Positions 1 to 64,000 of a stretch of 64,000 nt of DNA are shown in pieces. The first letter of the stretch is position 1. Every line of letters starts with the position of its first letter. The stretch covers positions 1,550,001-1,614,000 of the forward strand of contig NZ_CP014989.1 in assembly GCF_001685415.1 (NCBI RefSeq), in the 5' to 3' direction. The DNA is from Serinicoccus hydrothermalis. Lineage in GTDB: Bacteria; Actinomycetota; Actinomycetes; Actinomycetales; Dermatophilaceae. The notes under the pieces are model-generated. The model had not been told where the DNA came from, did not search any database, and saw only the letters and a program-made list of their open reading frames with translations. Position numbers and translations under genes: made by a program.

Positions 1-182
1 CGGTCCTCGGCCAGCTCCAGCAGCCCGTCGCGCTCCATCCGGGCGACGGTCTGGGACACGGTGGGCCCGGACTGGCTCAGCCGCTCGGCGATCCGTGCCC
101 GCATGGGCAGGACGCCGTCCTCCTCCAGCTCGAAGATCGTCTTGAGGTACATCTCCGTCGTGTCGATCAGGTCGCCGCTCAC
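1..182 (-). CDS. DtxR/IdeR-family metal-dependent repressor (N-terminal part)
   Basis: The visible 60 residues are the N-terminal winged helix of a DtxR/IdeR-type regulator, which binds operators of iron or manganese genes when loaded with metal. The TTEMYLKTI start, the RARIAERL segment and the recognition helix [18 protein letters not shown] are typical of the family. The GTG at 182 is chosen because a TAGGAT box lies 6 nt upstream and an earlier ATG meets a stop at once. The metal-binding and dimerisation part lies beyond the left edge, so iron cannot be told from manganese. Confidence 0.85.
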
Positions 183-188
183 GGTGCC

Positions 189-194
189 ATCCTA
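189..194 (-). promoter_or_regulatory. Leaderless -10 box of the DtxR-type gene
   Basis: TAGGAT on the minus strand is followed by 6 nt and the GTG at 182. The spacing predicts transcription starting at or next to the start codon. Confidence 0.55.
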
Positions 195-231
195 GGGTCG
201 GGGTCCGACAGGCGCGGGTGCTGCGCCCGTC

Positions 232-918
232 TCACGGCTGGATCCTGCTGCGTCGCCAGGCGGCCGGGTCGTCCAGGCCACCCTGCGCGGCACGCTCCCA
301 GACCAGACGGTCGTGCAGCCGGTCGCGTCGGCCGGCCCACACCTCGACCCGCTCGGGGACGATGCGGTAGCCGCCCCACGTCTCCGGTCTGGGCACGTCG
401 TCGGGGCTCCCCCGGTCCGGCCAGCGCTGCGCGCACTCCTGGTATGCCCGCTCCAGCGTCTCCCGGTCGGCGACCGGGGCGCTCTGGGTCGAGGCGTGGG
501 CGCTGATGCGCGAGCCGTAGGGCCGGCTGCGGAAGTAGTCCTCGACGAGCTCCTCGGGCAGCTCCTGCGCCCGGCCGCGGAAGCGCACCGCCCGGAACAT
601 GCCGGCCCAGGTGAGGGTCGCCGCGACCTTGTCGTTGGCGGCCAGCTGCAGGCCCTTGGCCGAGTCGGTACTGGTGAGGAAGCCCGGCCCCCCGGGGTCG
701 AGGAAGCGCATGAGGACCGCGCGGACGTCGGGCATACCGTCGGTGTCGACCGTCGCGACCCACAGCGCCGCCGGCTCGGGGACGTCCCCGTGCTCCTCGT
801 GCCGCGCCAGCGCCTGGTCGAACCACTCCCGGACCAGGGGCAGCGGCGCCTCCGGCGCGTCCTGCTCGAGGATCCCCTCGCCGGTGTAGTCGGTGCGGCC
901 GCCCAGCGCCCCGCTCAT
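232..918 (-). CDS. pdxH: Pyridoxine/pyridoxamine 5'-phosphate oxidase
   Basis: This 228 aa protein matches the length and pattern of PdxH, the cytosolic FMN enzyme that oxidises PNP or PMP to pyridoxal 5'-phosphate. Supporting features are the N-terminal WFDQAL segment, ALWVATVDTDGMPDVRAVL with the FMN-barrel strand, the TSTDSAKG phosphate-binding region, and the C-terminal WGGYRIVPERVEVW and RLHDRL motifs. The start ATG overlaps the stop of the upstream 132 aa gene by 4 nt, so translation is probably coupled. The product would supply cofactor to enzymes such as HemL, encoded elsewhere in the window. Confidence 0.95.
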   Translation of the reverse strand: MSGALGGRTDYTGEGILEQDAPEAPLPLVREWFDQALARHEEHGDVPEPAALWVATVDTDGMPDVRAVLMRFLDPGGPGFLTSTDSAKGLQLAANDKVAATLTWAGMFRAVRFRGRAQELPEELVEDYFRSRPYGSRISAHASTQSAPVADRETLERAYQECAQRWPDRGSPDDVPRPETWGGYRIVPERVEVWAGRRDRLHDRLVWERAAQGGLDDPAAWRRSRIQP

Positions 919-1313
919 CGCCGGCCCCGGCGCGGGAGGTGGACGGTGCGGCGCAGCTCGTCGGGGGTGTGCCGCTTGCCCGGGTCCGCGTTGAGCAGCA
1001 GCGTGTCGAAGGGCGCGTCGGTGTGCGGGTGCACGCCGACCGGCTCGTTGCGGGAGAAGACCACCCAGTAGGGCTGGCCGCGGTGGAAGACCTGCTGCAG
1101 CGAGCCCTCCACGACGGTGTCCGCGTGCGCGAGAGCGTGCTTGCGCGGGTTGGTGCGCGTCCGCGCGGCCTGGTCCTGGACGAACCGGGTCGCGGGCTCA
1201 CGCTGCTTGAGGATCTGGTCGACGACCTGCGGACCGTACTTCTGGGCCATGGCGTACACCACGGGCCCGTACTTGATCGCCTGCTTGGCCAGCCGGGTCT
1301 TTCCACCGGGCAC
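915..1313 (-). CDS. Conserved hypothetical protein, 132 aa
   Basis: I do not recognise a family. The protein begins with a basic stretch (GGKTRLAKQAIKYGP), has an amphipathic helix with KYGPQVVDQILKQ, then a region rich in aromatic residues and histidine (GQPYWVVFSRNEPVGVHPH), and ends in arginines. No membrane segment or signal peptide is visible. The GTG at 1313 is preferred over earlier starts because AGGAGG lies 4 nt upstream. The 4-nt overlap with pdxH argues for a real, co-translated gene; a cytosolic role is likely but its nature is open. Confidence 0.7.
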   Translation of the reverse strand: MPGGKTRLAKQAIKYGPVVYAMAQKYGPQVVDQILKQREPATRFVQDQAARTRTNPRKHALAHADTVVEGSLQQVFHRGQPYWVVFSRNEPVGVHPHTDAPFDTLLLNADPGKRHTPDELRRTVHLPRRGRR

Positions 1314-1365
1314 GGGTCCTCCTGCGGATCTGGGGTGCCCCGCCAGACTAGGCGGTGACTCTGGG

Positions 1366-3180
1366 TCAACGCCCGACGGCATACCCCTGCATTCCCCGGG
1401 GGTTCGCGCCGGCGCTGAGCACACCGGTCTCCGGGTCGCGGGCCACGGCGCACATCCGCCCCAGGCTCCACGGCCCCTGGTCCAGCACCTCGTGGCCGCG
1501 GGCGCGCAGCCCGTCCAGCACCTCGTCGCCGAGCCGGGACTCCGCGACGAGCACGCGGGGCTCGCTGGCGCGCGGGTGGAAGGAGCCGGGGAAGCTGGTG
1601 GTGTGGAAGACCGGGGCGTCGATCGCCTCCTGGAGCTCGGCGCCCCCGACGAGGTGGCGCAGCAGGAAGACGCTCTGCCACTGGTCCTGCTGGTCGCCGC
1701 CGGGGGTGCCGCACGCCAGGACGGGTATGCCCTCGCGCAGCACCATCGTCGGCGTGAGCGTGGTCCGGGGCCGCCGGCCGGGCACGAGCGAGCTGGGCAG
1801 CCCCTGCTCGAGCCACATCATCTGCAGCCGGCTGCCGAGGGCGAAGCCGAGCTCGGGGATGAACGGGCTGGACTGCAGCCAGCCGCCGCTGGGGGTTGCG
1901 GAGACGAGCATGCCCCAGCGGTCGACCACGTCGACGTGGCAGGTGTCGCCCCGGGTCGCGCCGTCCCGCTGCACGGTGGGCTCCCCGGCGCTGCCGTCGG
2001 CGGCGTCCGCGCCGGCTCCCTCGGTGACCAGCGCCTGCTCGGCCAGCCGCGGCTCGCGGCCGCCGGGCGAGCCGGGTCGCAGCTCGCGGGAGGCGCGGGC
2101 GTCGATGAGGCCGGCGCGGTCGGCGAGGTAGGCCTCGTCCAGGAGGTCGGCCATCGGGAAGGCGTCCTCGCCCGCGCTGTCCCCCAGCCACGCCTCCCGG
2201 TCCGCCATGGCGAGCTTCCACGCCTCGACGAGGGTATGCACGCCCTCGACGGTGTCGAGGTCGGTCACGTCGGCGTCGCCGGCGGCCATCTCGTCCACCA
2301 TCGCCAGCACCTGCAGCAGCGCCGGGCCCTGGCTCCACCGGCCCGCCTTGGCGATCGTGTGGCCGCGCCACTGCGCCGTGACCGCATCCTCCCAGGTGGC
2401 CTCGAAGGAGGTGACGTCGTCGGCGGTGATGACGCCGGGCAGCACCGCCCCGCCGCTGTGCCGGAAGGCCCGACGGGCGAAGGCGTCGATCGCCTCGGCG
2501 ACGAAGCCCTGGCGCCAGGCGGCGAGGACCGCGTCGATCCCGTCCTCGCGGGAGCCGCCGCCCCGCACCGCGTCCCGCTCGGCCTCCAGCAGCCGCTCCA
2601 GGGTGTCGGCCCAGGCCGGGTTGGTGACGATGCTGCCGGGCGCGGGGGGCTCGCCCCCCGTCAGCCACTGGTCGGCGGAGGTGTGCCAGTCGGACTCGAA
2701 GAGCTCGCGCACCGACGCGATGGTGCTGCTGACCCGTGGCACGACCGGGTGGCCGTGCCGGGCGTAGTGCAGGGCCGGTTCGAGCGCCTCCTGCGCGCTG
2801 ACCGTCCCGCGGTCGCGCAGCAGGGTCAGCCAGGCGACGGTCGCCCCCGGCACCGCGGTGGCCAGCGGCCCGGACCCGGGGACCCGGTCCAGCCCCGCGG
2901 CGGCGAAGTGCTCCGGGGTCGCGCCGGCGGGCGCCGGACCCTGGCCGCACAGGACGCGCGGGGTGGGGTCCTCGACCGAGGAGACGATGAGCGGCAGGTC
3001 GCCACCGGGGCCGTTGAGGTGCGGCTCGACGACCTGGAGCGCGAAGCCGGCGGCGACCGCACCGTCGGCGGCGTTGCCGCCGAGCTCGAGCAGGCGCATA
3101 CCGGCGGAGGAGGCGATCCAGTGCGTGCTGGAGACCATGCCGACGGTGCCGGTGAGCGTGGGGCGGGTGGTGAACTCCAT
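1366..3180 (-). CDS. Gamma-glutamyltransferase family protein
   Basis: This 604 aa protein belongs to the GGT family of N-terminal nucleophile hydrolases, which autocleave into two chains and transfer or hydrolyse gamma-glutamyl groups. The N-terminal GGNAADGAVA and GPGGDL motifs are present. The autoprocessing nucleophile is probably Thr413 in GDTCHVDVVD, where many relatives have TTH. GTPGGDQQDQW near residue 490 forms part of the acceptor site. No signal peptide is seen, so it is likely cytosolic, as in YwrD-like subgroups. It is the last gene of the MarR-MFS-27 aa peptide operon, 2 nt after the peptide's stop, so its substrate may relate to the MFS cargo. Glutathione itself is not assured. 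Confidence 0.9.
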   Translation of the reverse strand: MEFTTRPTLTGTVGMVSSTHWIASSAGMRLLELGGNAADGAVAAGFALQVVEPHLNGPGGDLPLIVSSVEDPTPRVLCGQGPAPAGATPEHFAAAGLDRVPGSGPLATAVPGATVAWLTLLRDRGTVSAQEALEPALHYARHGHPVVPRVSSTIASVRELFESDWHTSADQWLTGGEPPAPGSIVTNPAWADTLERLLEAERDAVRGGGSREDGIDAVLAAWRQGFVAEAIDAFARRAFRHSGGAVLPGVITADDVTSFEATWEDAVTAQWRGHTIAKAGRWSQGPALLQVLAMVDEMAAGDADVTDLDTVEGVHTLVEAWKLAMADREAWLGDSAGEDAFPMADLLDEAYLADRAGLIDARASRELRPGSPGGREPRLAEQALVTEGAGADAADGSAGEPTVQRDGATRGDTCHVDVVDRWGMLVSATPSGGWLQSSPFIPELGFALGSRLQMMWLEQGLPSSLVPGRRPRTTLTPTMVLREGIPVLACGTPGGDQQDQWQSVFLLRHLVGGAELQEAIDAPVFHTTSFPGSFHPRASEPRVLVAESRLGDEVLDGLRARGHEVLDQGPWSLGRMCAVARDPETGVLSAGANPRGMQGYAVGR

Positions 3181-3182
3181 GG

Positions 3183-3266: not shown

Positions 3267-4546
3267 CAGGTCACCTTCTCAGGAAGTGGCTCGGTCATGC
3301 GCACCAGGTAGACCGGGCGGGGCCAGCGGGCGCGGAAGCGCAGCCGCAGCTGGTCGTGGCGCATGACGTAGGCGGAGGCCAGGACTGCCGTGGCACCGCA
3401 CATGACGGTGGCGATGAGCACCGTCGCGCGGGCGCCGAACTGCTCGGCGAACCAGCCGAGGAAGGGCGAGCCCAGCGGCGTGCCCCCCATGAAGACCGTC
3501 ATGTAGAGCGCCATCACCCGGCCGCGCACGGCCTGGTCGACGCTGAGCTGCACCATGGCGTTCGCGCTCACCATGACGGTCAGCGCGAAAAGCCCGGTCG
3601 GGATGAGCAGCAGCGTGTATGCCGTGAAGTTCGGCGCGAGCGCGATGAGCGCGGTGCAGCCGGAGAAGGCGGCCAGCGAGCCCAGGAGCAGGCGCCACCG
3701 CGGGCGGTCCCGCCGGGCCGCGAGCAGGGCACCGGCCAGCGACCCGATCGCCATGACCGAGCCGGTGACCCCGAACTCGGCGACGTCCTTGCCGAAGACC
3801 TCGGTCGACATGAGGGCGTTGAAGATCTGGAAGTTCATGCCGAAGGTGCCGTGCATGAAGGCGATGACGAGGATGAGCTGGATGTCCGGTCGACCGCGGA
3901 CGTAGGCGATGCCCTCGCGCACCTTGCCCCGTGGCCCGGTGCGGTCGCGGACCGCGAGCTGGGAGGTGTCCATCGCCAGCAGCGCGATGATGACGGCGAC
4001 GAAGGTCAGCGCGTTGATGAGCAGCGTGGGGCCGGTCCCGACCGCCGCGATGAGCAGGCCCGCGACACCGGGGCCGATGAGCCGGCCGGAGTGGAAGGAC
4101 GCGGAGTTCAGACCCACGGCATTGGTGATCTGCGCCTTGGGGACCATCTCGGAGACGAAGGCCTGACGGGCGGGGGCGTCGACGGCGGACGCGGTGCCGG
4201 AGAGGAAGGCGAGGATGAACATGTGCCACAGCTGCATGTGGCCGGTGAGCACCGCGACGCCCATGACGGTGGCGAAGAAGGCCATGGCGCTCTGGCTGAC
4301 GAGCATGACCCTGCGTTTGGAGAAGTTGTCGCTGATGGCCCCTGCGAAGGGGGAGAAGAGCAGGATCGGCAGGAACTGCAGCCCGGTGACCAGGCCCAGG
4401 GCCTGCGCCGAGTTGTCGGTGAGCTCGGTGAGCACCACCCAGTCCTGGGCGATGCGGCCCATCCAGGTGCCGGTGTTGGAGATGATCCCGCCGGTGGCGT
4501 AGATCCGGTAGTTGCGCACCGAGAGCGCGGAGAACATCGCGCTCAC
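3266..4546 (-). CDS. MFS transporter, EntS/MFS_3-like
   Basis: This 426 aa membrane protein has the 12-helix pattern of the major facilitator superfamily and the loop signature DNFSKRRVMLVSQ between helices 2 and 3. The opening FSALSVRNYRIYATGG and the segment DAPARQAFVSEMV are typical of the MFS_3 group that includes the enterobactin exporter EntS. An exporter is therefore more likely than an importer; the substrate is unknown. The GTG at 4546 overlaps the MarR stop (GTGA) and has GGAGGTG upstream, so it is preferred over earlier in-frame codons. The gene is probably controlled by the MarR regulator just before it. Confidence 0.9.
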   Translation of the reverse strand: MSAMFSALSVRNYRIYATGGIISNTGTWMGRIAQDWVVLTELTDNSAQALGLVTGLQFLPILLFSPFAGAISDNFSKRRVMLVSQSAMAFFATVMGVAVLTGHMQLWHMFILAFLSGTASAVDAPARQAFVSEMVPKAQITNAVGLNSASFHSGRLIGPGVAGLLIAAVGTGPTLLINALTFVAVIIALLAMDTSQLAVRDRTGPRGKVREGIAYVRGRPDIQLILVIAFMHGTFGMNFQIFNALMSTEVFGKDVAEFGVTGSVMAIGSLAGALLAARRDRPRWRLLLGSLAAFSGCTALIALAPNFTAYTLLLIPTGLFALTVMVSANAMVQLSVDQAVRGRVMALYMTVFMGGTPLGSPFLGWFAEQFGARATVLIATVMCGATAVLASAYVMRHDQLRLRFRARWPRPVYLVRMTEPLPEKVT

Positions 4547-5034
4547 CGGGACACCTCCCGGTCGGGGGCCTGCGACGCCCGGTCCGGCTGACCGGCGGTC
4601 GCGGTCGCGAGCAGCCCTTCGATGAGGTCGGTGGCGCGGCGCAGCAGCTCGCGGTCCACGCCGCTCAACCCCTCCAGCCGCGCCGCCATCCAGGCGTCGC
4701 GCAGCTCGCGCTCGCGGGTCACGACGGCCAGGCCCTCGTCGGTGAGGGAGAGCCGCACGAGACGACCGTCGTCGGCGTCGGTGGCGCGGTCGACGTAGCC
4801 CAGCTCGGTGAGCTGCCCCACGGTCCGGCTCATGCTCGGCGGGCTGACCTGCTCGATCCCGGCCAGCTCGCCCAGCGTGCGCTCCTGCTCGCTGAGGCGC
4901 ACCAACACGCTGAAGTGGTGGGGGGCGATCGTGTTGCCGGCGTCGAAGCGCACCCGGCGGGCCACCCGCATGCACGCGATCCGCAGGTCGTGCGCGAGGG
5001 CGGCGGTCGCGGGGTCCGGGGAGGTGTCAGGCAT
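4543..5034 (-). CDS. MarR-family transcriptional regulator
   Basis: This 163 aa protein has the MarR layout: N-terminal dimer helix, then the winged helix with LGELAGIEQVSPPSMSRTVGQLTELGYVDR and the wing residues DADDGRLVRLSLTDEG. It heads the operon with the MFS transporter, 27 aa peptide and GGT, and is divergent from the DUF2530 gene. An imperfect dyad with TCGTTAG arms lies directly upstream, suggesting autorepression relieved by a small ligand, probably one carried by the transporter. The ligand cannot be read from the sequence. Confidence 0.9.
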   Translation of the reverse strand: MPDTSPDPATAALAHDLRIACMRVARRVRFDAGNTIAPHHFSVLVRLSEQERTLGELAGIEQVSPPSMSRTVGQLTELGYVDRATDADDGRLVRLSLTDEGLAVVTRERELRDAWMAARLEGLSGVDRELLRRATDLIEGLLATATAGQPDRASQAPDREVSR

Positions 5035-5035
5035 A

Positions 5036-5075
5036 CCTTCGTTAGTCTATCTCATTACCTCATCTAACGATAATC
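5036..5075. promoter_or_regulatory. AT-rich divergent promoter with MarR operator candidate
   Basis: In a locally AT-rich patch the arms TCGTTAG (5039-5045) and CTAACGA (5064-5070) face each other across 18 bp. On the minus strand TAGACT (5049-5044) lies 9 nt before the MarR ATG, so a dimer bound here would cover the start site. Confidence 0.5.
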
Positions 5076-5107: not shown

Positions 5108-5353
5108 GTGAGCACGGCACCGCGTCCCCGCGACGACGACGTCCATCCCCCCGAGGTCACGCTGCGCACGATCACCCTGGTCCGCTGGGGCATCCTCGGG
5201 TGGGTCGTGGTGCTGGCGGTCGTGCTGGCCGTGCCCCCGTTGCGCAGCGGAGAGCGCGACTGGTGGGTGTGGGTGCCGGTCGCCGGGGCCGTACTCGGGG
5301 CGCTGGGGTATGCCTACCTGCGCCGCGGCAAGGGCAACGCCGCCGAGGCCTGA
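5108..5353 (+). CDS. DUF2530 family membrane protein
   Basis: This 81 aa protein has two membrane helices (about residues 26-42 and 54-71) joined by a short loop with RSGERDWW, a positively charged end, and the spacing of the actinobacterial DUF2530 family. No function is known to me for the family. The GTG start is supported by the leaderless -10 box rather than a ribosome binding site. It stands alone between a divergent MarR operon and a convergent DUF3027 gene. Confidence 0.75.
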   Translation: MSTAPRPRDDDVHPPEVTLRTITLVRWGILGWVVVLAVVLAVPPLRSGERDWWVWVPVAGAVLGALGYAYLRRGKGNAAEA

Positions 5354-5387: not shown

Positions 5388-6134
5388 TCAGCGCTCGCTG
5401 AAGACGATCTCCGCGTCGTCGTCGAGCACCGGGGGGTCGATCTTCTCACCGGCCGGCTGCTCGACGTCGACCTCGCTGTGCGCCCCGCAGCCGAAGTCCA
5501 GGGCCACGACGGAACCGTCCGCGGGCGACCACTCGTTGGCGCAGACGCCGAAGACGGTGCGCAGCGCGCCGGACATCGGCAGGAAGTAGCCGCAGGTCCG
5601 GCACGGCTTCGGCGCCTTGCGGGCGCTCTCGCTGGCCGGGCCGTGGTCGCCGTCGTGCCAGCGGGTCGCCGCGGCGTCGCGCCCCTCGGCGGACAGCACC
5701 CGCGGCCGCCCGAGGCCCAGCTCCCACAGCGCCACGGCGTCGACGTCCTCCTCGCCGGTGGCCTCGAAACCGGCCTCCAGCCGTGGGTCGTCCGCGACGA
5801 AGGCGGTGCGGTCGCCGGGTCCGATGTCGCCCGGGGCCAGGCGCTCGGCATACGGCACCCACTCCGGGGAGAGCATCGCCTCCTCGCCGGGGAGCAGGTG
5901 CACCTCGCTGACGGTGGCCTTGCGGGCGCGCGGGACGCGGGAGAGCGTCACCGCCCAGCGCCACCCGGGGTAGGCGGCCGCCGTGCAGGAGAAGTAGTGC
6001 GTCGCCAGCCGCTCGGCCTCCAGGACGACCTCGACGTGGTCGCCGACGGTCCCCGGCTCCGCGATCTCGGCGGCCGCCGCCCGGGCCACCTCGACGGCAC
6101 CGGTCAGCACGGCATCGCTCCTGGGAGTGGGCAT
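5388..6134 (-). CDS. DUF3027 family protein
   Basis: This 248 aa protein matches the actinobacterial DUF3027 family. It contains WRWAVTLSRVPRARKATVSE in the N-terminal half, a CxxC pair in CRTCGYFLPMSGALRTVFGVC, the run NEWSPADGSVVALDFGCGAHSE, and an acidic end. The four clustered cysteines suggest a bound metal such as zinc, which is an inference. The gene lies 5 nt after the cold-shock gene in the same direction, so the two are likely co-transcribed. The molecular role is unknown. Confidence 0.85.
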   Translation of the reverse strand: MPTPRSDAVLTGAVEVARAAAAEIAEPGTVGDHVEVVLEAERLATHYFSCTAAAYPGWRWAVTLSRVPRARKATVSEVHLLPGEEAMLSPEWVPYAERLAPGDIGPGDRTAFVADDPRLEAGFEATGEEDVDAVALWELGLGRPRVLSAEGRDAAATRWHDGDHGPASESARKAPKPCRTCGYFLPMSGALRTVFGVCANEWSPADGSVVALDFGCGAHSEVDVEQPAGEKIDPPVLDDDAEIVFSER

Positions 6135-6139
6135 ACGGG

Positions 6140-6541: not shown

Positions 6542-6664
6542 GGGAGCACCTCACGAAAGTGTGTGGGGATGAAACGGGATCACCCGAGGATATCGCCCGC
6601 GGCGGCAGGGGTCGAATGCCTTGTCGGACGGCACCGGTCCCGCTGCCGCGCCCTCGGGTATGCC

Positions 6665-8566
6665 TCAGGCCGCCAGGGCGACCTCGGCACCGTCGTCCAG
6701 GCGCCCCGGGACCTCCGGGCGCGCGGAGCCGGCGGCGACGAGGGCGGCATACGCGCCGCCGGAGCGCAGCAGCTCGGCGGGCGGTCCCTGCTCGACGATC
6801 CGGCCGGCCTCGAGCACGACGACGAGGTCGGCGTCCCGGACGGTCGAGAGCCGGTGCGCGATCCTCACCACGGTGCGGTCGCGCCCCACCCGGTCCAGGG
6901 CCTCCTGCACGGCCGCCTCGGTGCGGGTGTCGAGGGCGCTGGTCGCCTCGTCGAGCAGGAGCACCTGCGGGTCGCGCAGCAGCGTCCGCGCCAGGGCCAG
7001 GCGCTGCTGCTCACCCCCGGAGAAGCGGTGGCCGCGGGCGCCCACGACCGTGTCGTAGCCGTCCGGCAGGCCCAGGATGAGGTCGTGGATCTGTGCGTCG
7101 GCGGCGGCCTGCTCGATCTGCGCGTCGGTCGCGTCCGGGCGGGCGAACCGCAGGTTGTCACGGACGCTCGCGTGGAGCAGGTAGGTCTCCTGGGAGACGA
7201 CGCCGACGGCGCCCGCCCGCTCCGCCGCCGGCAGGTCGCGCAGGTCGACGCCGTCGAGGGTGACCCGGCCGCTGGTCGGGTCGTCGAGCCGGGTGAGGAG
7301 GGAGGCGAGCGTGCTCTTGCCGGACCCGGTATGCCCGACGAGCGCCACGGTCGCCCCGGCCGGGACGACCAGGTCGATGTCGGTGAGCGCGGCGGTGCCC
7401 TCGGCGGCGTCGGCGTGGCGGTAGCCGACCGACTCCAGGCGCAGCTCGCCGCGCACCGGGCTGGGCAGGTGGCGGGCGCGCGCGGCGTCGGGCTCGGGCA
7501 GGTCGACCGGCAGGTCGAGGTACTCGAAGATCCGGCTGAACAGCGCGAGCGAGGCGGTGATCTGGACCCCGGTCGACAGCAGCCCCATGACCGGGCGGAA
7601 GAGCCCGGCCTGCAGCGCGGTGAAGGCGACGAGGGTCCCGATCGTGATCCCGTCACCCGTGACCGGCAGGCCGGCGACGAGGTAGAGCGCCGCGGGCACG
7701 ACGGCGAAGACGATGCCCATGGTGGCCTGCCGCCAGCGGCCCGCGATCTGCGCGGCCACCTCGAGGTCGAGCAGGCCGGTGCTCGTGCCGACGAAGCGGT
7801 CGGCGAGCTGGTCGCCGGCGCCGAGGGTCTTGCTCAGCCGGGCACCGCTGACCGAGAGCGACTCCTCCACCTGGGCGTGCAGCCCGGCGAGGGCGCGCTG
7901 CCTCTTCTCGGTCGCCTCCCGGCGCAGGCGGGCGACCGAGCGGGTGATGAGCACCGCGGGCGGGATGACGACGAGCGAGAGCAGCGCGAGGGTGGGGCTG
8001 AGGGCCAGCATCGCGACGAGGGTGCCCACGACGGTGGCGACGTTGCCGGCCCACGACGTGGCCGTCTGTGTGACCACGCCCTGGAGCCCGGAGATGTCGT
8101 GGGTCAGGCGCGACTGCACCTCGCCGGACCGGGTGCGGGTGAAGAAGGCCAGCGACTGGCGCTGCAGGTGCGTGAAGAGCTGGCTGCGCAGCTGGTGCAT
8201 GATCCGCTGGCCCATGGTCGTGGACAGCCAGGTCTGGACCACGCCGAGCACCGCCGTGACGACGGCGACGCCGACCATGAGGCCGACGAGGGTCACGAGC
8301 AGCCGCACGTCCTGGTCCGGGATCGCCACGTCGACGATCTCCTTGGTGAGGAAGGGCGTGGCGAGGCCGAGCGCGGAGCTCGAGACGATGAGCACCAGGA
8401 CTCCGGCGATGGTCCTGCGGTGCGGGCGGAAGAGGGCCAGCACCCGGCGGGCGCTGACGGGGTGGGCGGCCAGCTGGGCGGTGTCCTTCGGGTCCGGGCG
8501 GGTGCGGTCGCCGCGGTCGCCGCGCCGGCCTGCCTGGTCGGGGGTGGGGGTGAGGTGGGGGTCCAT
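6665..8566 (-). CDS. ABC exporter, fused membrane and ATPase domains
   Basis: This 633 aa protein is a half-transporter of the MsbA/LmrA type. It has six membrane helices in about residues 45-330, then an ATPase with Walker A GHTGSGKST, the signature FSGGEQQRLALARTLL, Walker B VLLLDEATSALD and the switch histidine in IAHRLST. Two copies would pair to export a hydrophobic or drug-like compound. AGGAGG sits 4 nt before the ATG at 8566. The divergent MarR gene and the shared operator suggest induction by the exported compound. The substrate is not evident. Confidence 0.93.
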   Translation of the reverse strand: MDPHLTPTPDQAGRRGDRGDRTRPDPKDTAQLAAHPVSARRVLALFRPHRRTIAGVLVLIVSSSALGLATPFLTKEIVDVAIPDQDVRLLVTLVGLMVGVAVVTAVLGVVQTWLSTTMGQRIMHQLRSQLFTHLQRQSLAFFTRTRSGEVQSRLTHDISGLQGVVTQTATSWAGNVATVVGTLVAMLALSPTLALLSLVVIPPAVLITRSVARLRREATEKRQRALAGLHAQVEESLSVSGARLSKTLGAGDQLADRFVGTSTGLLDLEVAAQIAGRWRQATMGIVFAVVPAALYLVAGLPVTGDGITIGTLVAFTALQAGLFRPVMGLLSTGVQITASLALFSRIFEYLDLPVDLPEPDAARARHLPSPVRGELRLESVGYRHADAAEGTAALTDIDLVVPAGATVALVGHTGSGKSTLASLLTRLDDPTSGRVTLDGVDLRDLPAAERAGAVGVVSQETYLLHASVRDNLRFARPDATDAQIEQAAADAQIHDLILGLPDGYDTVVGARGHRFSGGEQQRLALARTLLRDPQVLLLDEATSALDTRTEAAVQEALDRVGRDRTVVRIAHRLSTVRDADLVVVLEAGRIVEQGPPAELLRSGGAYAALVAAGSARPEVPGRLDDGAEVALAA

Positions 8567-8680: not shown

Positions 8681-9151
8681 GTGAACCCTTCACGCGGGCG
8701 GTCCGGGGCGGCATCGGACGAGATCGACGAGCCCACCGAGGTGGACCTGCTCCAGCGCCTGGCGCGCCGCTGGCGCCACGCCGGGCGGCCCGACGCCGCC
8801 AGGGACGGTCTGTCCCCGCACCAGGAGCGCGCCCTGCTGGCCGTGACCCGGCTCACCGACCGCACGGAGCGGCCGGGGGTGCGGGTGTCGGCGCTCGCCG
8901 AGCACCTGGACATCGCCCCCCGCTCGGCCACCGAGGTCGCCGACGCCCTCGAGACCGCCGGGCTCCTGACGCGCCGGCCCGACCCGGACGACCGGCGGGC
9001 GGTGCTGCTCACGCCCACCCCGGCGGCCCGGCATACCGTCGAGCAGGTGCGGGAGCGGCGCCGGGCGGCCGCCGGCCGGGCCGTCGCGGCGCTCGACCCG
9101 GCCGACCGGGCCGAGCTGCGGCGCCTGCTGCTCCTGCTGCTCGCGGACTGA
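8681..9151 (+). CDS. MarR-family transcriptional regulator
   Basis: This 156 aa protein has the MarR winged helix: VSALAEHLDIAPRSATEVADALETAGLLTR followed by the wing PDPDDRRAVLLTPT. The start is taken as GTG 8681 because of the -10 box 7 nt upstream; starting at 8669 would add four residues. It is divergent from the ABC exporter and probably represses it through the GAGGT/ACCTC dyad. The C-terminal helix is leucine-rich and likely part of the dimer interface. Confidence 0.88.
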   Translation: MNPSRGRSGAASDEIDEPTEVDLLQRLARRWRHAGRPDAARDGLSPHQERALLAVTRLTDRTERPGVRVSALAEHLDIAPRSATEVADALETAGLLTRRPDPDDRRAVLLTPTPAARHTVEQVRERRRAAAGRAVAALDPADRAELRRLLLLLLAD

Positions 9152-15311: not shown

Positions 15312-15324
15312 GGGGCATACCCAC

Positions 15325-21314: not shown

Positions 21315-21367
21315 ACGCGCGATTCTCCCACGTCACACTGGGTGGCCCCTGATGGGTCACGAATCGC

Positions 21368-46039: not shown

Positions 46040-46046
46040 ACCGAGG

Positions 46047-50544: not shown

Positions 50545-50560
50545 GCTCTTCTCCTCCACT

Positions 50561-51653: not shown

Positions 51654-51659
51654 GCACCC

Positions 51660-51666
51660 CAGGATG
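51660..51666. promoter_or_regulatory. Symmetric -10-like box shared by ku and ligD
   Basis: CAGGATG reads CAGGAT rightwards (6 nt before ATG 51672) and CATCCT leftwards (7 nt before GTG 51653). Both positions suit leaderless starts. The first base is C rather than T in each direction, so the elements are weaker than the usual TANNNT. Confidence 0.45.
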
Positions 51667-51671
51667 GACCC

Positions 51672-54283: not shown

Positions 54284-55785
54284 CAGGCCTCCGGCTTGAG
54301 GAAGGGGAAGAGGATGGTCTCGCGGATCCCCGTCCCGGTGAGCAGCATGAGCACCCGGTCCAGGCCCATGCCCAGACCGCCCATGGGCGGCGCGGCATAC
54401 TCCAGCGCCCGCAGGAAGTCCTCGTCCAGCTGCATCGCGTCCTCGTCGCCACCCGCGGCCAGCAGGGACTGCTCGGTGAGCCGCGCGCGCTGGACCTCGG
54501 GGTCGACGAGCTCGGAGAAGGCGGTGCCGCGCTCCACCCCGCCGATGACGAGGTCCCACGCCTCGACGAGCCCGGGCTCGCTCCGGTGCGGCCGGGCCAG
54601 CGGCTGCGCGAGCGCCGGGTAGTCGCAGACGAAGGTCGGCTGGATGAGCGTCGGCTCGACGACGTCGCCGAAGATCTCCATGGCGATCTTGTCGGCGCCC
54701 CACTCGGGCTTCACCGGCACCCCGTGCGCGTCGGCGAGACGACGCAGGTCCTCCTCCGAGGAGTCGACGCCGACGCTCTCCCCCATGGCGCTCGAGAGCC
54801 CTTCGTAGAACGGCAGCCAGGACCATTCCCCGTCGAGGTCGACCGGCCCGGCCGGGGTCTCGAGCGCTCGTCCTCCGAGCTCGTCCGCCGCCGCGAGGAT
54901 CATCCGGCGCATGAGATCGGCCATGGTGAACTGGTCGCCGTAGGCCTGATAGCACTCGAGCATCGTGAATTCCGGCGAGTGGGTGGAATCGATCCCCTCG
55001 TTGCGAAAGATCCGGCCGATCTCGTAGACGCGTTCCACGCCCCCGACGACGGCCCGCTTGAGATAGAGCTCGAGCGCGATCCGCATCGTCATCGGCAGGT
55101 CGAAGGCGTTGAGGTGGGTGTTGAACGGCCGGGCGTTGGCCCCGCCGTGGACCGCCTGCAGCACGGGCGTCTCGACCTCGACGTAGCCGTCCTGCTCGAG
55201 GACCCGGCGCACGGCGCGGGTCAGCGCCGCCCGGTCCACGACCATCTGCCGCGCCTCGTCCCGCACGATGAGGTCGACGTAGCGCTGCCGGACCCGCTGC
55301 TCCTCCGACAGGTCCTTGTGCAGCACGGGCAGCGGCCGCAGCGCCTTGGCCGCCATCTCCCACCTGCTGGCCATGACGGACAACTCGCCCCGCCGGGAGC
55401 GGATGACCCGGCCCTCGACGAAGACGTGGTCGCCCAGGTCGACCCAGGCCTTCCACCGGTCCAGGGACTCCTGGCCGATCTCGGCGAGCGAGAGCATGCC
55501 CTGCAGCCGGGTGCCGTCACCGGCCTGCAGCGAGACGAAGCAGAGCTTGCCGGTGTTGCGGACGAAGACGACCCGCCCCGCGACCCCGACGACGTCCTGC
55601 GTCTCCTCGCCGGTCTCCAGCCCGTCCCACTGCTCCCGCACCTGGGGGATGGTGTGGGTGAGCGGCAGGTGGACCGGGTAGGGGTCGACCCCCGCGTCGA
55701 GCATGGCCGCACGCTTGCCCTGCCGGACCGCGATCTGCTCGGGCAGGTCGGTCTCCGGGACGGGCTGGGGGCTGGGGTCGCTCAC
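54283..55785 (-). CDS. lysS: Lysyl-tRNA synthetase (class II)
   Basis: This 500 aa protein has an N-terminal OB-fold anticodon domain (VVGVAGRVVFVRNTGKLCFVSLQ) and a class II core with motif 2 (RIFRNEGIDSTHSPEFTMLE) and motif 3 (GGLGMGLDRVLMLLTG). The order is as in M. tuberculosis. GTG 55785 has a TACTCT box 7 nt upstream. No T-box is present. Length and motifs are complete. Confidence 0.96.
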   Translation of the reverse strand: MSDPSPQPVPETDLPEQIAVRQGKRAAMLDAGVDPYPVHLPLTHTIPQVREQWDGLETGEETQDVVGVAGRVVFVRNTGKLCFVSLQAGDGTRLQGMLSLAEIGQESLDRWKAWVDLGDHVFVEGRVIRSRRGELSVMASRWEMAAKALRPLPVLHKDLSEEQRVRQRYVDLIVRDEARQMVVDRAALTRAVRRVLEQDGYVEVETPVLQAVHGGANARPFNTHLNAFDLPMTMRIALELYLKRAVVGGVERVYEIGRIFRNEGIDSTHSPEFTMLECYQAYGDQFTMADLMRRMILAAADELGGRALETPAGPVDLDGEWSWLPFYEGLSSAMGESVGVDSSEEDLRRLADAHGVPVKPEWGADKIAMEIFGDVVEPTLIQPTFVCDYPALAQPLARPHRSEPGLVEAWDLVIGGVERGTAFSELVDPEVQRARLTEQSLLAAGGDEDAMQLDEDFLRALEYAAPPMGGLGMGLDRVLMLLTGTGIRETILFPFLKPEA

Positions 55786-56361: not shown

Positions 56362-57908
56362 GGTGTCTCCTCAGGGGTGGGGTATGCCGGCAGCCGCGCC
56401 GCCGCGTGGTCGGAGGCGGCCCAGAGCAGGGCCGTGGCATAGCTGCGCCAGGGGCGCCACCCCGAGGCGTGCTGCACCAGGGCGCGGCCGCCGGGCAGCC
56501 CGTGGGCGCGAGCCGTGACCTGCACGCCGAGATCGGTGGCGGGGAAGGCGTCCGGGTCGCCCATCCCCCGCAGCAGCACCATCTCGGCCGTCCACGGCCC
56601 GACACCGGGCAGGGCCAGCATCGCCTCCCGGGCGGCGGACCGGTCGGCGCCGGCGCCGAGGTCGAGCTCGCCGTCCGCGAGCGCGGCCGCCACGGTGCGC
56701 AGCGTGCGCTGGCGGGAGGCGGGCGTACCCGGCAGGTCGTCGTCGGCCGCAGCAGCGACCGCCTCGGCCGTGGGGAAGAGGTGGGTCACCGGACCGGCGA
56801 GCTGCTCCGGCAGGGGCTCCCCGAGGCTCGCCACCAGCCGACCGGTCAGCGTGCCGGCCGCGACCGTGGACACCTGCTGGCTGAGGACGACGCGCAGCGC
56901 GAGCTCGTCGGGGTCGGGGCTGCCGGGCAGGCGCACGCCGGGGTGCGCCGCGACGAGCGGGGCCAACGCGGGGTCGTCGGCGAGGTGCTCGTCGACCGCG
57001 ACGGGGTCGGCGTCGAGATCGAGCATCCGGCGGCAGCGGCCGATCGCGGCGGCAAGGTCGCTCGTGTCGGTGAGCCGCAGGGTGACGTGGACGTGCCGGT
57101 CGCCGGCCGCGCTGGGGCGCAGCTGCGCGACAGCCGGGCCGGCCGGGAGGCGCAGGGACCGGACGAGCGCCCCGTCGGTCCAGGCCTCGATCCCCGGCAC
57201 CGCGGTGGCGACGAGGTGGCCGAAGAGGCTGGGTGCGTGCAGGGGGCCGCGGAAGGGCAGCCGCAGGGTGAGGGTGGTCGGTGCCCCGGTCACCGGCGCT
57301 CGGTCGGGGCCGTGGTGCTCGGCAGCGCGGCGGCGTGCCCCGGCCCGCAGCTGGGAGGGGGTGGCGGCATACACCTCGCGGACGGTGTCGTTGAAGGACC
57401 GGATGCTGGAGAAGCCCGCGGCGTGCGCGACATCAGCCATCCGCAGCGTCGTCCCCTCCAGCAGCAGCCGCGCCGCCTGCGCCCGCTGCGCCCGGGCGAG
57501 CGCCAGCGGGCCGGCCCCGAGCTCAGCGCTGACCAGCCGCTCCAGCTGCCGGGTCGAGTAGCCCAGCCGCCGGGCGAGACCACCGACCCCCTCGCGGTCC
57601 ACCACCCCGTCCGCGACGAGCCGCACCGCCCGGGCCACGACATCGCCCCGGACGTGCCAGAGCGGCGATCCCGGGGTGGCGTCCGGCAGGCACCGCTTGC
57701 AGGCCCGGAAGCCGGCGCCCTGGGCCGCGGCGGCGCTCGGGTAGAAGCGGAGGTGATGCACCTTCGGGGTGATGGCCGGGCAGCTGGGGCGGCAGTAGAT
57801 CCTCGTGCTGAGCACCCCGGTGACGAACCACCCGTCGTAGCGGGGGTCCTTGCTGCGCACGACCGCCGCGCAGCGGTCGTGGTCGAGGTGGATGGCCGAG
57901 GTGCTCAC
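56358..57908 (-). CDS. Ada regulator fused to AlkA 3-methyladenine glycosylase
   Basis: This 516 aa fusion begins with the Ada zinc domain (Cys39, Cys43, Cys70, Cys73 in RIYCRPSC and RACKRC), whose first cysteine can take methyl groups from phosphotriesters. An AraC-type HTH follows (about 85-190; [10 protein letters not shown] and [11 protein letters not shown]). The C-terminal part has AlkA_N and the HhH-GPD glycosylase ([29 protein letters not shown] with the catalytic Asp). The O6-alkylguanine domain of Ada is absent and supplied by ogt next to it. GTG 57908 is the likely start. Confidence 0.94.
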
Positions 57909-59093: not shown

Positions 59094-59500
59094 CTACGGC
59101 CTGCGCGCCGCGCGGCTCGGTGGATCAGGGGACGACCGGTCGGTCACGTCGACCCGCAGGAGCAGCGCCTCGCGGATCCCGAGGACCCGGCCGGCCAGCA
59201 GGTCGGCTGCCCCGCGCCGACCGGGCAGCGTCGTGACGGGGACCACGCTCTCCGGGCCGGCGGTGACGGCATACCGTCGCCCGTCGAGCTGGAGCTCCGC
59301 CCGGTGTGCCGCACCACCGCCCAGGGTGCGCCGGGCGTGCCGACGGTCCGCAGGTTGCGGGGGTTGAGGCTGCGGCGCTGCCAGGCGATCAGCGGACGCA
59401 ACAGCCGCGCGTCGCGGGCGCGGAAGACCCGCACCAGGACACCGCCCCCGAGCAGCGCCGCGCCGAGACCCACCCCGGCGAGCAGACCGAGGCGGCTCAT
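59094..59500 (-). pseudogene. Decayed deazaflavin-dependent nitroreductase-family gene
   Basis: From ATG 59500 the frame reads a plausible N-terminal half (AWQRRSLNPRNLRTVGTPGAPWAVVRHTGR) of the DUF385/Ddn-type F420 family, then turns into a meaningless tail. In another frame the C-terminal half AELQLDGRRYAVTAGPESVVPV is intact to a TAG at 59094. The usual middle (a serine-glycine-arginine loop and about 30 residues) is missing, so a deletion with frame change near 59300-59312 is likely. The ATG overlaps the stop of the DUF4386 gene, so both were once one operon. Confidence 0.65.
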
Positions 59501-61029: not shown

Positions 61030-62093
61030 CCGCACGTCCCTGGGAGGAGGCGTGGCAGCACGCGCTCTACGGCACCGACGGGTTCTACCGGCGGGGCGCC
61101 CCGGCCGAGCACTTCGCGACCTCGGCCCAGGGCATACCGGGGGCGGGTCGGGTCCTGGCCGAGGCGGTCGCCGAGCTCTGCGCGCGGCACGGCTGCGACC
61201 GGGTCGTGGACGTCGGGGCGGGACGCGGCGAGCTGCTGCGGTCGCTGCGCGAGGTGGCTCCCGGGCTGCACCTCACCGGGGTCGACGTCGTCCCGCGGCC
61301 CGAGGGGCTCGACGTCGACGCCTGGCTCGTCGCCCCGGGCGGGGCCGCGCTGCCGGACGCGCTGCGGGACCTCGGCTCGACCCTCGTCCTCGCGCACGAG
61401 TGGCTCGACGTCGTCCCGTGCCCGGTGGCGGAGCGGGACGAGCAGGGGGTATGGCGTGAGGTCCGGGTGCGCAGGTCCGCCGAGGGGGCGTGGCGCGAGT
61501 CGCCCGGGCCGGCGCTGGGCGGCGACGACCTCGCCTGGGCGCAGCGGTGGCTGGAGCCGGCCCCACTCATGCCGGGAGATGATTCCTCTGCGGTGATGCA
61601 TCAGCGCAGAGGAACAGCATCTGCGTACGAGTCGGTCGTGCGCGGCGAGATCGGTCTGCCCCGCGAGGCAGCTCTCATCGACCTGGTGGGACGGATCCGC
61701 AGCGGGCTGGTGGTCGTCGTCGACTACGGCCACACCGCCGCCGACCGGCCTCGGCACGGCACGCTGACCGGCTTCCGCGACGGCCGGGAGGTCGAGCCCG
61801 TGCCCGACGGCAGCTGCGACCTCACCGCCCACGTCGCGGTCGACGCCCTCGCGGCCTCGCTCCCCTCCCCGACCGGACACCCCTTGGCTCCGCAGCGTCA
61901 GCGGGAGGTCTTGCTCGACCTGATCGGCGACCCGAGCCCTCCGGTGCCGCACGACCTCGCGCGGGAGCGGCCGCAGGCATACCTCGAGGCGCTCGCGCGC
62001 CGCGCCGCGCTGCGGGCCCTGACCAGCGGCGCCCTCGGCGACTTCTGGTGGCTGGTGGTGGAGGTCGGCGAGCAGCCACCGGGTCGGGCTTAG
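61026..62093 (+). CDS. MidA/NDUFAF7-like SAM-dependent methyltransferase with in-frame palindrome insert
   Basis: This 355 aa protein has a SAM motif VVDVGAGRGELL (60-71), LAHEWLDVVP, and the family run VVVVDYGHTAADRPRHGTLTGFRDG, as in NDUFAF7/MidA-type methyltransferases. Mitochondrial NDUFAF7 dimethylates an arginine of the NuoD-type subunit; nuoD lies 9 nt downstream here. Residues 181-203 (from LMPGDDSS to YES) come from a compound palindrome and look foreign to the family. GTG 61026 overlaps the TetR stop; GTG 61020 is a second choice. Confidence 0.85.
   Translation: MTARPWEEAWQHALYGTDGFYRRGAPAEHFATSAQGIPGAGRVLAEAVAELCARHGCDRVVDVGAGRGELLRSLREVAPGLHLTGVDVVPRPEGLDVDAWLVAPGGAALPDALRDLGSTLVLAHEWLDVVPCPVAERDEQGVWREVRVRRSAEGAWRESPGPALGGDDLAWAQRWLEPAPLMPGDDSSAVMHQRRGTASAYESVVRGEIGLPREAALIDLVGRIRSGLVVVVDYGHTAADRPRHGTLTGFRDGREVEPVPDGSCDLTAHVAVDALAASLPSPTGHPLAPQRQREVLLDLIGDPSPPVPHDLARERPQAYLEALARRAALRALTSGALGDFWWLVVEVGEQPPGRA
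61564..61631. repeat. Compound palindromic repeat, copy B (inside a gene)
   Basis: It has the same design as 16215-16282: TCCTCTGCG, a 12-nt loop with TGCATC, then CGCAGA-N9-TCTGCG. Over the last 48 bp the two copies agree at about 40 positions. The first CGCAGA has decayed to CCGGGA. The reading frame of the host gene is kept. Confidence 0.75.
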
Positions 62094-62096: not shown

Positions 62097-62102
62097 GGCC
62101 GG

Positions 62103-63272
62103 GTGAGCACCCGCGACCTGGACGTGAGCCTCGGCGCCACCGGCGTCGGCGGGCTCTCCACCACCGAGATGGTGCTCAACATCGGCCCCCAGCACCCGGC
62201 CACCCACGGCGTGCTGCGGCTGCGCATCACCGCGGACGGCGAGCGGATCACCGCCGCCGAGCCGGTCATCGGCTACATGCACCGCGGCGCGGAGAAGCTC
62301 TTCGAGGTCCGCGACTACCGGCAGATCATGGTGCTGGCGAACCGGCACGACTGGCTGTCCGCCTTCAACAACGAGGTGGGTGTCGCGCTCACCGTCGAGC
62401 ACCTGCTCGAGATGGAGGTCCCCGAGCGCGCGACCTGGACCCGCACCCTGCTGTGCGAGCTCGGGCGCGTGCTCAACCACCTGATGTTCCTCGGCTCCTA
62501 CCCGCACGAGCTCGGGGCGATCACCCCGATGTTCTACGCCTTCCGCGAGCGCGAGGAGATCCAGGCGGTCATGGAGGAGTACTCCGGCGGCCGGATGCAC
62601 TTCATGGCGACGCGGGTCGGGGGGCTGCTGCACGACCTGCCGGAGGGCTGGCTGGACCGGGTCGACGCAGCCGTGGCCTCGGTGCGCTCCCGGCTCCCCG
62701 ACCTCGTCGGGCTGGTGCTGGGCAACGAGATCCTGCAGGCCCGCACCCGTGGGGTGGGGGTGCTGGACCTGGACCAGGTGCTGGCCTACGGCGTCTCGGG
62801 GCCGATCGCCCGGGCCTCGGGGCTGGACGTCGACCTGCGGCGGGACGAGCCCTACCTCGCGTATGCCGAGCTCTTCGGCGAGGACGGCCCCGGGCGCGTG
62901 GTGACCCGGGAGGCCGGCGACTGCCTCGCCCGGCTGGAGGTGCTGGTCGAGCAGGTCGAGGTGAGCCTGGACCTCGTGCTGGCCTGCACCGCCCGGCTGC
63001 GCGAGCTCGGGCCCGGGCCGGTCAGCACCCGGCTGCCGAAGAAGCTCAAGGTCCCGGCCGGCGAACACTACTGCGCGAGCGAGAACCCGCTGGGCTTCAA
63101 CGGCTACTACCTCGTGAGCCGCGGCGACACCGTGCCGCACCGGCTCAAGCTGCGCTCGGCGTCCTTCAACAACGTCCAGGTGCTGCGCGAGATGCTGCCC
63201 GGCGCGGTCGTCGCCGACATGGTGGCGATCCTGGGCTCGATGTTCTTCGTCGTCGGGGACATCGACAAGTAG
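62103..63272 (+). CDS. Stand-alone NADH-quinone oxidoreductase subunit D paralogue
   Basis: This 389 aa protein is a NuoD/49-kDa homologue: [16 protein letters not shown] at the start, [11 protein letters not shown], and the end [40 protein letters not shown]. It lies outside any nuo operon. In the quinone-site segment it has [11 protein letters not shown] where complex I has an LDY pattern, so the quinone-binding tyrosine is a tryptophan. The conserved arginine (residue 39 in GVLRL) is near the site methylated in mitochondria. It may replace NuoD in a variant complex or serve another oxidoreductase. Confidence 0.9.
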
Positions 63273-63283
63273 CGGCGAGGCCG

Positions 63284-63925
63284 TCAGGCGCGCAGCACGC
63301 TGACGCAGAAGTCGGCGTCGGTATGCCAGGGGCGCAGGTCCCAGGTGGCGAAGCGGTGCTCGAGGCGCAGCCCGGCGGCCCCGGTCGCCGCGTCGAGGTG
63401 GGCCGGGGTGAAGCCGCGGACCACCCGGCAGCCGACGACGAGGAAGCCGCCGGCGCGCAAGTGGGCCCGTAGCCGGGAGAGCACCTCGCCCCGGTGCGGC
63501 TCGGCCACGAAGTCCATGACGTTGCCGGCGACCAGCGCCCCGTCGAAGGGCTCGGGCTCGCCGAGGGCCGCCAGGTCGAGCGTGGCGAGATCGCCCACGA
63601 GCCAGGTGGCGCCGGGGTAGTCCTCGCGCGCCGCCCGGATGAGCGCCGGGTCGATGTCGACGCCGACGACGGTATGCCCGAGCCGGGCCAGGTGACCGCC
63701 GTGCCGCCCGGGCCCGCACCCGGCGTCCAGCAGCCGGGCGCCGCGCGGCGCGAGCACGTCCACCAGCCGCGACTCGCCCTGCAGGTCCTGCCCGTCGGCG
63801 GCCATCGTCCGGAACCGGTCGACGTACCACCGCGAGTGCTCGGGGTCCTCCAGCCCGGGCCACAGCGTGGTGTCCCGCACGCCGGGCGTCGGCTCGATCG
63901 GGACCTGCGGGTCGCGCTCGCTCAT
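63284..63925 (-). CDS. Class I SAM-dependent methyltransferase
   Basis: This 213 aa protein has the Methyltransf_25-type fold with LLDAGCGPGRHGGHLARLGHTVVGVDIDPALI (about 69-100) and DGALVAGNVMDFV. The start WPGLEDPEHSRWYVDRFRTMAADGQDLQGE is typical of a group of small unassigned methyltransferases. The substrate is unknown. TACAGT lies 7 nt before ATG 63925. It converges on nuoD, 11 bp apart. Confidence 0.88.
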   Translation of the reverse strand: MSERDPQVPIEPTPGVRDTTLWPGLEDPEHSRWYVDRFRTMAADGQDLQGESRLVDVLAPRGARLLDAGCGPGRHGGHLARLGHTVVGVDIDPALIRAAREDYPGATWLVGDLATLDLAALGEPEPFDGALVAGNVMDFVAEPHRGEVLSRLRAHLRAGGFLVVGCRVVRGFTPAHLDAATGAAGLRLEHRFATWDLRPWHTDADFCVSVLRA

Positions 63926-63932
63926 GACGGTC

Positions 63933-63938
63933 ACTGTA
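63933..63938 (-). promoter_or_regulatory. Leaderless -10 box of the terminal methyltransferase gene
   Basis: TACAGT on the minus strand, 7 nt, then ATG at 63925. Confidence 0.5.
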
Positions 63939-64000
63939 GGGGCGGGCCGGGGCACGCTTGTGCGGAAGGTTGCGTCACACCGGTGCCCCTCGGCACGCCT

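Follow-up and report, generated by a model that had tools for sequence, protein, structure and literature searches.

An octamer repeated throughout Serinicoccus hydrothermalis and other Dermatophilaceae, depleted on the same strand near itself and possibly an uptake-type self-recognition word

Occurrence of the word in the window and in the genome

The stretch of DNA analysed here (the window, 64,000 bp) belongs to the genome of Serinicoccus hydrothermalis (G000), which consists of one contig of 3,597,394 bp. Its genes, among them a menB-like gene and an AMP-binding (menE-like) gene, and its intergenic spaces carry many copies of a short word, the octamer GGTATGCC with the core heptamer GTATGCC. 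A preliminary description of the window had reported about 58 heptamers (32 in one orientation, 26 in the other) and 42 octamers, with about 2 octamers expected for independent bases. Exact matching gave 59 heptamers (27 GTATGCC and 32 GGCATAC) and 43 octamers (22 GGTATGCC and 21 GGCATACC) against a computed expectation of 2.0, and the sites named earlier at 9030, 12837 and 14448 are all among the exact matches (Table 1). Markov models of order 1, 2 and 3 predict 0.65, 1.5 and 1.9 octamers, respectively. Genes were called with our own codon-usage caller, with no annotation used, and a codon-aware null was obtained by shuffling synonymous codons inside the called genes, so that the protein and the codon counts were kept. 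The window genes contain 37 octamers and 51 heptamers, while 200 such shuffles gave means of 2.8 and 4.6 and maxima of 7 and 10. In a larger sample of 864 kb, made up of the window and 40 stretches of 20 kb from the same genome, 454 octamers lie in genes against a shuffle mean of 34.4 (maximum 46, 40 trials). The whole genome (3.60 Mb) holds 1065 + 1115 = 2180 octamers, near equal in the two orientations and corresponding to one per 1.65 kb; the octamer read backwards, used as the control word throughout, occurs 4 + 7 = 11 times. The enrichment is thus neither limited to the window nor predicted by a background model, the two outcomes that the preliminary description had named as fatal to its claim.

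The limits of the word were examined on 464 kb of genome sequence. Octamers with one mismatch to the word exceed an order-2 model by at most about 4-fold. The first base forms an exception: it is soft, with variants 6- to 20-fold over the model. No strong tract flanking the word was seen. The word had been described as present in all frames; this holds, except that the sense frame GTA-TGC-C is nearly empty (2 of 258 coding octamers), the most used frame being NNG-TAT-GCC.

Heptamers are spread evenly over the chromosome, with 0.76-1.01 per kb when it is divided into six bins. No replichore polarity was detected by a two-arc test on the 790 heptamers of the 864-kb sample, the origin not being located: the best two-arc fraction, 0.533, lies under the shuffled mean. 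Density drops with guanine-cytosine content (GC), from 10.3 heptamers per 10 kb at 72-74% GC to 3.75 at less than 68%. The three longest word-free gaps of the sample measure about 8 kb each. They include the L102 rRNA operon and, in L160, a region of Rhs repeats, each with a low GC. L166 and L113 contain ordinary genes, and GC is normal in some gaps of 6-7 kb. The relation to GC and the gaps agree, weakly, with a slow build-up of the word in older DNA. In the window, the longest word-free stretch (46043-52198, 6.2 kb) has a GC of 69.7%.

Codon choice and conservation of word sites

In G000, codons that are otherwise rare are used to build the word at 59-85% of the opportunities permitted by the protein, as opposed to 1-4% elsewhere. 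TAT is chosen in G-TAY-GCC in 178/210 cases (89/2336 for other Tyr codons), ATA in GGC-ATH-CC in 41/54 (22/3825 for other Ile codons), CAT in GG-CAY-ACC in 37/49 (111/2976 for other His codons) and GCA in G-GCN-TAC-C in 65/111 (462/17441 for other Ala codons). Word-poor relatives show no such preference in the same contexts, with 0/9 and 1/25 for two Tyr contexts and 0/14, 0/2 and 0/20 for the others. As the same word is reached through different base changes, a single mutational bias is insufficient to produce it.

Word sites are also kept above composition-matched controls in all five relatives at 83.5-89.2% identity (26/34 sites versus 46/101 controls, 20/31 versus 30/92, 16/32 versus 25/98, 17/33 versus 20/96 and 12/30 versus 20/94). 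Few sites or none persist in G397, G403 and G395, which are more distant (1/30 versus 0/72, 2/13 versus 3/39 and 0/7 versus 0/13, respectively). Together with the codon-aware null, codon saturation and site conservation bear out the early proposal that selection acts on the DNA and not on the protein.

Orientation of neighbouring copies

Among 517 adjacent octamer pairs in the 864-kb sample, those closer than 1 kb comprise 61 same-strand and 183 opposite pairs, and those further apart 123 and 150. No distance shows a clear depletion of opposite pairs (7 versus about 9 expected below 50 bp, and at or above expectation up to 2 kb), so the effect is a repulsion of same-strand copies. Below 250 bp the opposite fraction is 0.89 for the word, the median being 0.44 and the highest unrelated value 0.70 in a set of 180 8-mers of similar count that includes the word and one overlapping word. 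Selection against direct repeats was rejected as the source, because other equally common 8-mers do not show the effect. Pooled samples of other genomes, five of which represent orthologous regions and are not independent, gave 7 same-strand and 41 opposite pairs below 250 bp, and 47 and 100 up to 1 kb.

The same dependence is seen in codon choice. At 620 synonymous opportunities, the word was completed in 19/46 cases where a copy on the same strand lay within 250 bp, in 256/321 where none lay within 1 kb, and in 109/149 where an opposite copy lay within 250 bp. The same-strand drop occurs in all four contexts (15/22, 1/10, 2/7 and 1/7) and is smallest in the Tyr context; an opposite copy reduces filling in only one of the four (GGCAYACC, 8/18). 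Gaps between copies on one strand are more even than with shuffled orientations (coefficient of variation 0.88 versus 0.93-1.06 in 300 shuffles). The redundancy is strongest below 250 bp and can be traced to about 1 kb. A 5'/3' asymmetry of the rule was considered and dropped (10/19 versus 9/27 below 250 bp, 43/70 versus 37/64 below 500 bp).

The statement of the preliminary description that the word has no strand preference therefore stands for the chromosome as a whole, as the two-arc test indicates, and falls locally, where neighbouring copies alternate in orientation. This indicates that the orientation of the word does matter. In the simplest reading, the word is read on a single strand or in a single direction, and another copy close by adds little to its function. 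The literature passages available on known uptake words contain no report of an orientation rule like that of G000. Because of codon saturation, conserved sites and same-strand avoidance, we conclude that selection or drive acts on the DNA, strand by strand.

Distribution and dialects

For the order-wide count 297 genomes were sampled, 24 of them within Dermatophilaceae, the family of the window. The 273 genomes outside the family contain at most 136 octamers each (G107, 8.3 Mb, reversed word 33). Within the order sampled, strong enrichment is confined to Dermatophilaceae, with a mild excess elsewhere. Across the 186 genomes counted in the family, copies of GGTATGCC range from 6 to 2228. The window's genus (g1) has 285-2180 octamers in 30/31 genomes and 38 in the remaining one, G395, while all 12 genomes of g11 lack the enrichment (13-30 octamers). 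Differences also occur inside genera: the g120 genomes contain 11, 1694 and 347 octamers, and in g3 G302 has 20 and the other four genomes 264-493. The reversed control is high in a few genera (264 word versus 201 reversed copies in G303), and weak enrichments mean little there. No comparably strong word was detected in word-poor G428, G367 and G395, of which 100, 60 and 30 kb were scanned, respectively.

Other words take the place of GGTATGCC in related genera. Word counts in 20-kb samples of word-poor genera revealed CGAAGGGG/CCCCTTCG at a locus of Janibacter terrae (L051) and in g9 and g5 sequences. CGAAGGGG reaches 1198-2588 copies in 16/16 g9 genomes and 2589-3180 in 3/3 g5 genomes (3180 in G066), as opposed to 84-396 in the other 167, and all 19 of these genomes are low in GGTATGCC (6-40 copies). 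In the five GGTATGCC codon contexts they score 0/3, 0/3, 0/2, 0/2 and 0/3, and they saturate their own word instead: CTT is used in CCC-CTN-CG in 8/8 cases versus 28/2002, GAA in C-GAR-GGG-G in 11/17 versus 53/1150, and further contexts give 4/5 and 9/14, CGA in CGN-AGG-GG being the exception (2/10). A third and related word, GTATGACG, has 1622-1966 copies in 5/5 g104 genomes, 1557 in G441 and 834 in G375. Samples of Humibacillus, Terrabacter and g134 prefer GTATGCCG with other first bases.

In a four-gene tree of 21 genomes both CGAAGGGG genera group together (99.8/93) among GTATGCC carriers, the surrounding forks being weak, while a tree of LeuRS only places the two genera apart. Since the four-gene tree unites what LeuRS splits, two separate origins of CGAAGGGG are not claimed. 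GTATGCC may be the older word, which was then exchanged once and lost several times.

In the CGAAGGGG samples 17 hairpin pairs CGAAGGGG...CCCCTTCG lie within 50 bp, 13 of them intergenic; nine of these 13 are next to a gene, at 15-65 bp from its 3' end. Several stems appear long and perfect by eye, and the +/- order is found in 17/23 opposite pairs. At 50-1000 bp these samples have 51 same-strand and 72 opposite pairs, a weaker form of the strand rule, and most of the close opposite pairs are hairpins.

Some further samples deserve mention. The first 20 kb of a g9 genome (L081, G342; GC 65.5%) contain one CGAAGGGG where about ten are expected, and encode ordinary genes (FtsW/RodA-type, aconitase-type). 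The 100 kb sampled from G428 (g11; L181-L184, L083) contain 8 copies each of AAGTACTC and AGTACTTC versus 0.1-0.2 expected, making each a weak candidate word. Possible dialects are GAAGGCCG in L097 (G356, g116; 18 versus 1.4 in 20 kb) and GGATGCCG in L093 (G310, g100; 16 versus 1.9 in 20 kb). CGCCGTAC in G367 (L086, L185, L186; 32 versus 6.7 in 60 kb) and CGTACGCC in G372 (L213; 12 versus 1.6 in 16 kb) are enriched across several frames, which may reflect codon usage.

Word sites and other features of the window

All exact matches in the window are listed in Table 1. The loci nearest to the menB-like locus among named ones are those of Ornithinimicrobium and Serinicoccus. On the minus strand, 21368-23875 encodes a protein with AAA_33, Metallophos and PNKP ligase domains, by its domains a bacterial Pnkp-type RNA repair protein; the next gene spans 23872-25380. 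GCATGC is under-represented in the window (26 on both strands versus 41-67 expected), possibly through avoidance of a restriction site.

Table 1. The 59 exact matches of the word in the window (octamer, GGTATGCC in either orientation; heptamer, GTATGCC core only; "intergenic or gene edge" according to our own gene calls).
Word	Position	Strand	Remark
octamer	441..448	+	
octamer	731..738	-	
octamer	1378..1385	-	
octamer	1724..1731	+	
heptamer	3617..3623	+	
octamer	5030..5037	-	intergenic or gene edge
octamer	5307..5314	+	
heptamer	5847..5853	-	
heptamer	6130..6136	-	intergenic or gene edge
octamer	6657..6664	+	intergenic or gene edge
heptamer	6746..6752	-	
octamer	7328..7335	+	
octamer	9030..9037	-	CAT-ACC site of the preliminary description
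octamer	10750..10757	+	
heptamer	11531..11537	-	
octamer	12837..12844	-	menB-like gene 12259-13191 (Pfam ECH_1)
octamer	14248..14255	+	
octamer	14448..14455	-	AMP-binding (menE-like) gene
octamer	15314..15321	-	intergenic or gene edge
octamer	15440..15447	+	
octamer	16157..16164	+	
octamer	16943..16950	+	
heptamer	17703..17709	+	
octamer	18281..18288	-	
heptamer	19439..19445	+	
heptamer	20673..20679	-	
heptamer	21310..21316	-	intergenic or gene edge
heptamer	22337..22343	-	
octamer	23249..23256	-	
octamer	24071..24078	+	
octamer	24944..24951	-	
octamer	25640..25647	+	
octamer	26420..26427	-	
heptamer	27768..27774	-	
octamer	28220..28227	+	
heptamer	29429..29435	-	
octamer	31035..31042	+	
octamer	32490..32497	-	
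octamer	34546..34553	+	
octamer	36552..36559	-	
octamer	37142..37149	+	
octamer	38190..38197	-	
octamer	39550..39557	-	intergenic or gene edge
octamer	42187..42194	+	
octamer	43841..43848	+	
octamer	46035..46042	-	intergenic or gene edge
octamer	52199..52206	-	
octamer	52350..52357	+	
octamer	52472..52479	-	
heptamer	53203..53209	+	
heptamer	54394..54400	-	
octamer	56381..56388	+	
heptamer	57366..57372	-	
octamer	59268..59275	-	intergenic or gene edge
octamer	61131..61138	-	
octamer	61976..61983	-	
heptamer	62861..62867	+	
octamer	63320..63327	+	
octamer	63671..63678	+	

A possible uptake-type self-recognition word

By analogy with known systems, we tentatively interpret GGTATGCC as a self-recognition word read strand by strand, most likely in the manner of DNA uptake sequences, a reading to which we give just under an even chance. 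It figured already among the candidates of the preliminary description (uptake sequence, methylation target, HIP1-like element, nucleoid or recombination site), a list that is narrowed below. An uptake-type word fits best because of the copy number, the dialects, the missing polarity and the hairpins. Uptake signals are generally present at least 1,000 times, and in Neisseria they form terminators in which the +/- order dominates (PMC1852404). The DNA uptake sequences (DUS) of Neisseriaceae likewise occur in thousands of copies on both strands, show no replichore polarity and have dialects that differ between clades around a common core (PMC3630211); two of the three words GGTATGCC, CGAAGGGG and GTATGACG share GTATG, and the inverted pairs of the CGAAGGGG dialect have the same dominant order. 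With the uptake signal sequences (USS) of Pasteurellaceae the word shares its shortness and asymmetry, its thousands of copies and its occurrence within and between genes.

In the proposed mechanism, some factor would prefer word-bearing DNA during natural transformation, alleles with the word would spread, copies would build up toward one per kilobase, and the word would be maintained on the DNA through selection or molecular drive. The reader, which may belong to DNA uptake, would act directionally from its site, so that a second copy on the same strand is redundant and an opposite copy is not; a directional reader, e.g. one fixing which strand enters, could reconcile uptake with the local orientation effect. 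G000 encodes ComEC, ComEA-like (HHH, SLBB) proteins and a locus with the Pfam domains T2SSE, T2SSF (twice) and DUF4244 and with TadE below the cut-off ("Tad-like" and "Flp-like" being our own labels). Another actinobacterium, Micrococcus luteus, uses Flp/Tad pili in transformation and possesses comEA as well as comEC (PMC6370729), which makes uptake machinery plausible in an actinobacterial family.

A number of observations weigh against an uptake role. No gene tracking the word, and no ComP-like or other receptor, was found among PilM, ComEC, T2SSE and one Tad-like locus. ComEC is present in 180/186 and the T2SSE ATPase in 185/186 genomes of the family, word-rich and word-poor alike, and the Tad-like locus in all 6 word-poor genomes inspected; these were accordingly rejected as determinants of the word. 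PilM, a type IVa pilus marker, occurs in 7/186 genomes and not in G000, which removes a type IVa pilus receptor from consideration. TadE-like matches are missing in word-poor G458 and G094, but likewise in word-rich G397 and G080. Four of the 13 intergenic CGAAGGGG hairpins have divergent genes on their two sides, which is not an expected place for a terminator, the bases inspected downstream of the hairpins contain no T run, and GGTATGCC itself rarely forms such pairs (2 +/- pairs below 50 bp in 864 kb). Uptake in H. influenzae is orientation-independent (PMC1939737), so the same-strand rule is unexpected, and no report of transformation in Dermatophilaceae was found in the literature. Other differences are that the word has no strong flanking tract, unlike USS, and that, unlike DUS, it is actinobacterial and follows a local same-strand rule, which the DUS passages available do not mention. 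Separately, two T2SSE matches (G374:C2:334081-334992 and G178:C59:8722-9657) each contain one internal TGA.

It is possible, but rather doubtful, that the word belongs to a strand-specific, directional self-recognition system of this actinobacterial family which needs the word on each strand within about 1 kb, does not count copies on the other strand, and was switched in one clade to an unrelated word at thousands of sites. Such a system would be neither a classical uptake sequence nor Chi, and the word might serve, through a reader of a new type, as a directional signal for uptake or for DNA processing.

Alternative explanations

A Chi-like recombination or repair site for a helicase-nuclease other than RecBCD (e.g. 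AdnAB), which enters at a break and reads one strand, is unlikely. Same-strand redundancy without an effect of opposite copies is what a strand-read site predicts, and an asymmetric word of 7-8 bp resembles Chi, of which lineage variants have been described (PMC8022716). Polarity along the chromosome, a known property of Chi used in its detection, is missing, and the octamer is about three times denser than Chi in E. coli, which occurs once per 5 kb (PMC8022716). RecC is not required: it was found in 30/31 g1 and 18/19 CGAAGGGG genomes, but in only 0/9 g7, 1/11 g2, 1/9 g134 and 0/4 g3 carriers, all word-rich, and it is present in word-poor G302, G367 and G395. RecBCD-Chi as the general cause is ruled out by this distribution and the missing polarity. 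Mycobacterial AdnAB is not known to respond to Chi.

We consider it improbable, too, that the word is a self-marker read directionally by some other system, such as a defence nuclease or a nucleoid or segregation protein. Such a marker would share the features of the uptake-type word, and gain and loss of such a system would agree with the dialect switch and the repeated absence; there is no candidate gene, the even density opposes a role linked to origin or terminus, and a steric effect of binding should keep opposite copies apart, too.

A strand mark needed at intervals on each strand, e.g. for strand discrimination, and set by a strand-specific DNA methyltransferase or otherwise, is very unlikely. 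It would agree with the even per-strand gaps and the asymmetry of the words. The cyanobacterial HIP1, also an octamer repeated to an extreme genome-wide, has been linked to orphan methyltransferases (PMC4390886), but GGTATGCC and CGAAGGGG are not palindromic, follow a local strand rule and have no methyltransferase common to all carriers among the two families tested. PF01555 is absent from G000 and from 111/186 family genomes, PF02384 from 5/24 carriers tested (G412, G277, G164, G352 and the fragmented G368), and both from G164 and G352; as they are missing from some word-rich genomes, neither is a necessary factor. Deamination of methylated GGCATGCC was rejected as the source of the word, with 14 copies counted (47 expected) versus 315 products in the same sample and no such form in the other dialect.

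Codon-pair, composition or mutational bias has a negligible chance of being the cause, for although one frame is used most and density is lower in low-GC stretches, codon shuffles yield at most 7 octamers against 37, four codon choices with different base changes make one word, word-poor relatives lack the effect, and dependence on same-strand neighbours is left unexplained.

Significance

Uptake-type watermark words are not known outside Neisseriaceae and Pasteurellaceae. Neither the word itself nor uptake words in actinobacteria came up in searches of an open-access collection that leaves out most subscription papers and all preprints; the octamer string occurs in 400 of its papers, and the titles of the 20 listed concern unrelated subjects. 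If GGTATGCC is indeed an uptake word, genetic "mate recognition" would have evolved independently in monoderm bacteria, natural transformation would become testable in many genera of the family, and genetic tools would gain the word as a simple tag. The same-strand rule, which is measurable without experiment, is informative about the reading of any word of this type. The CGAAGGGG genera, placed among GTATGCC carriers in a tree that is weak in parts, may provide a natural experiment for studying the replacement of one word by another in a genome.

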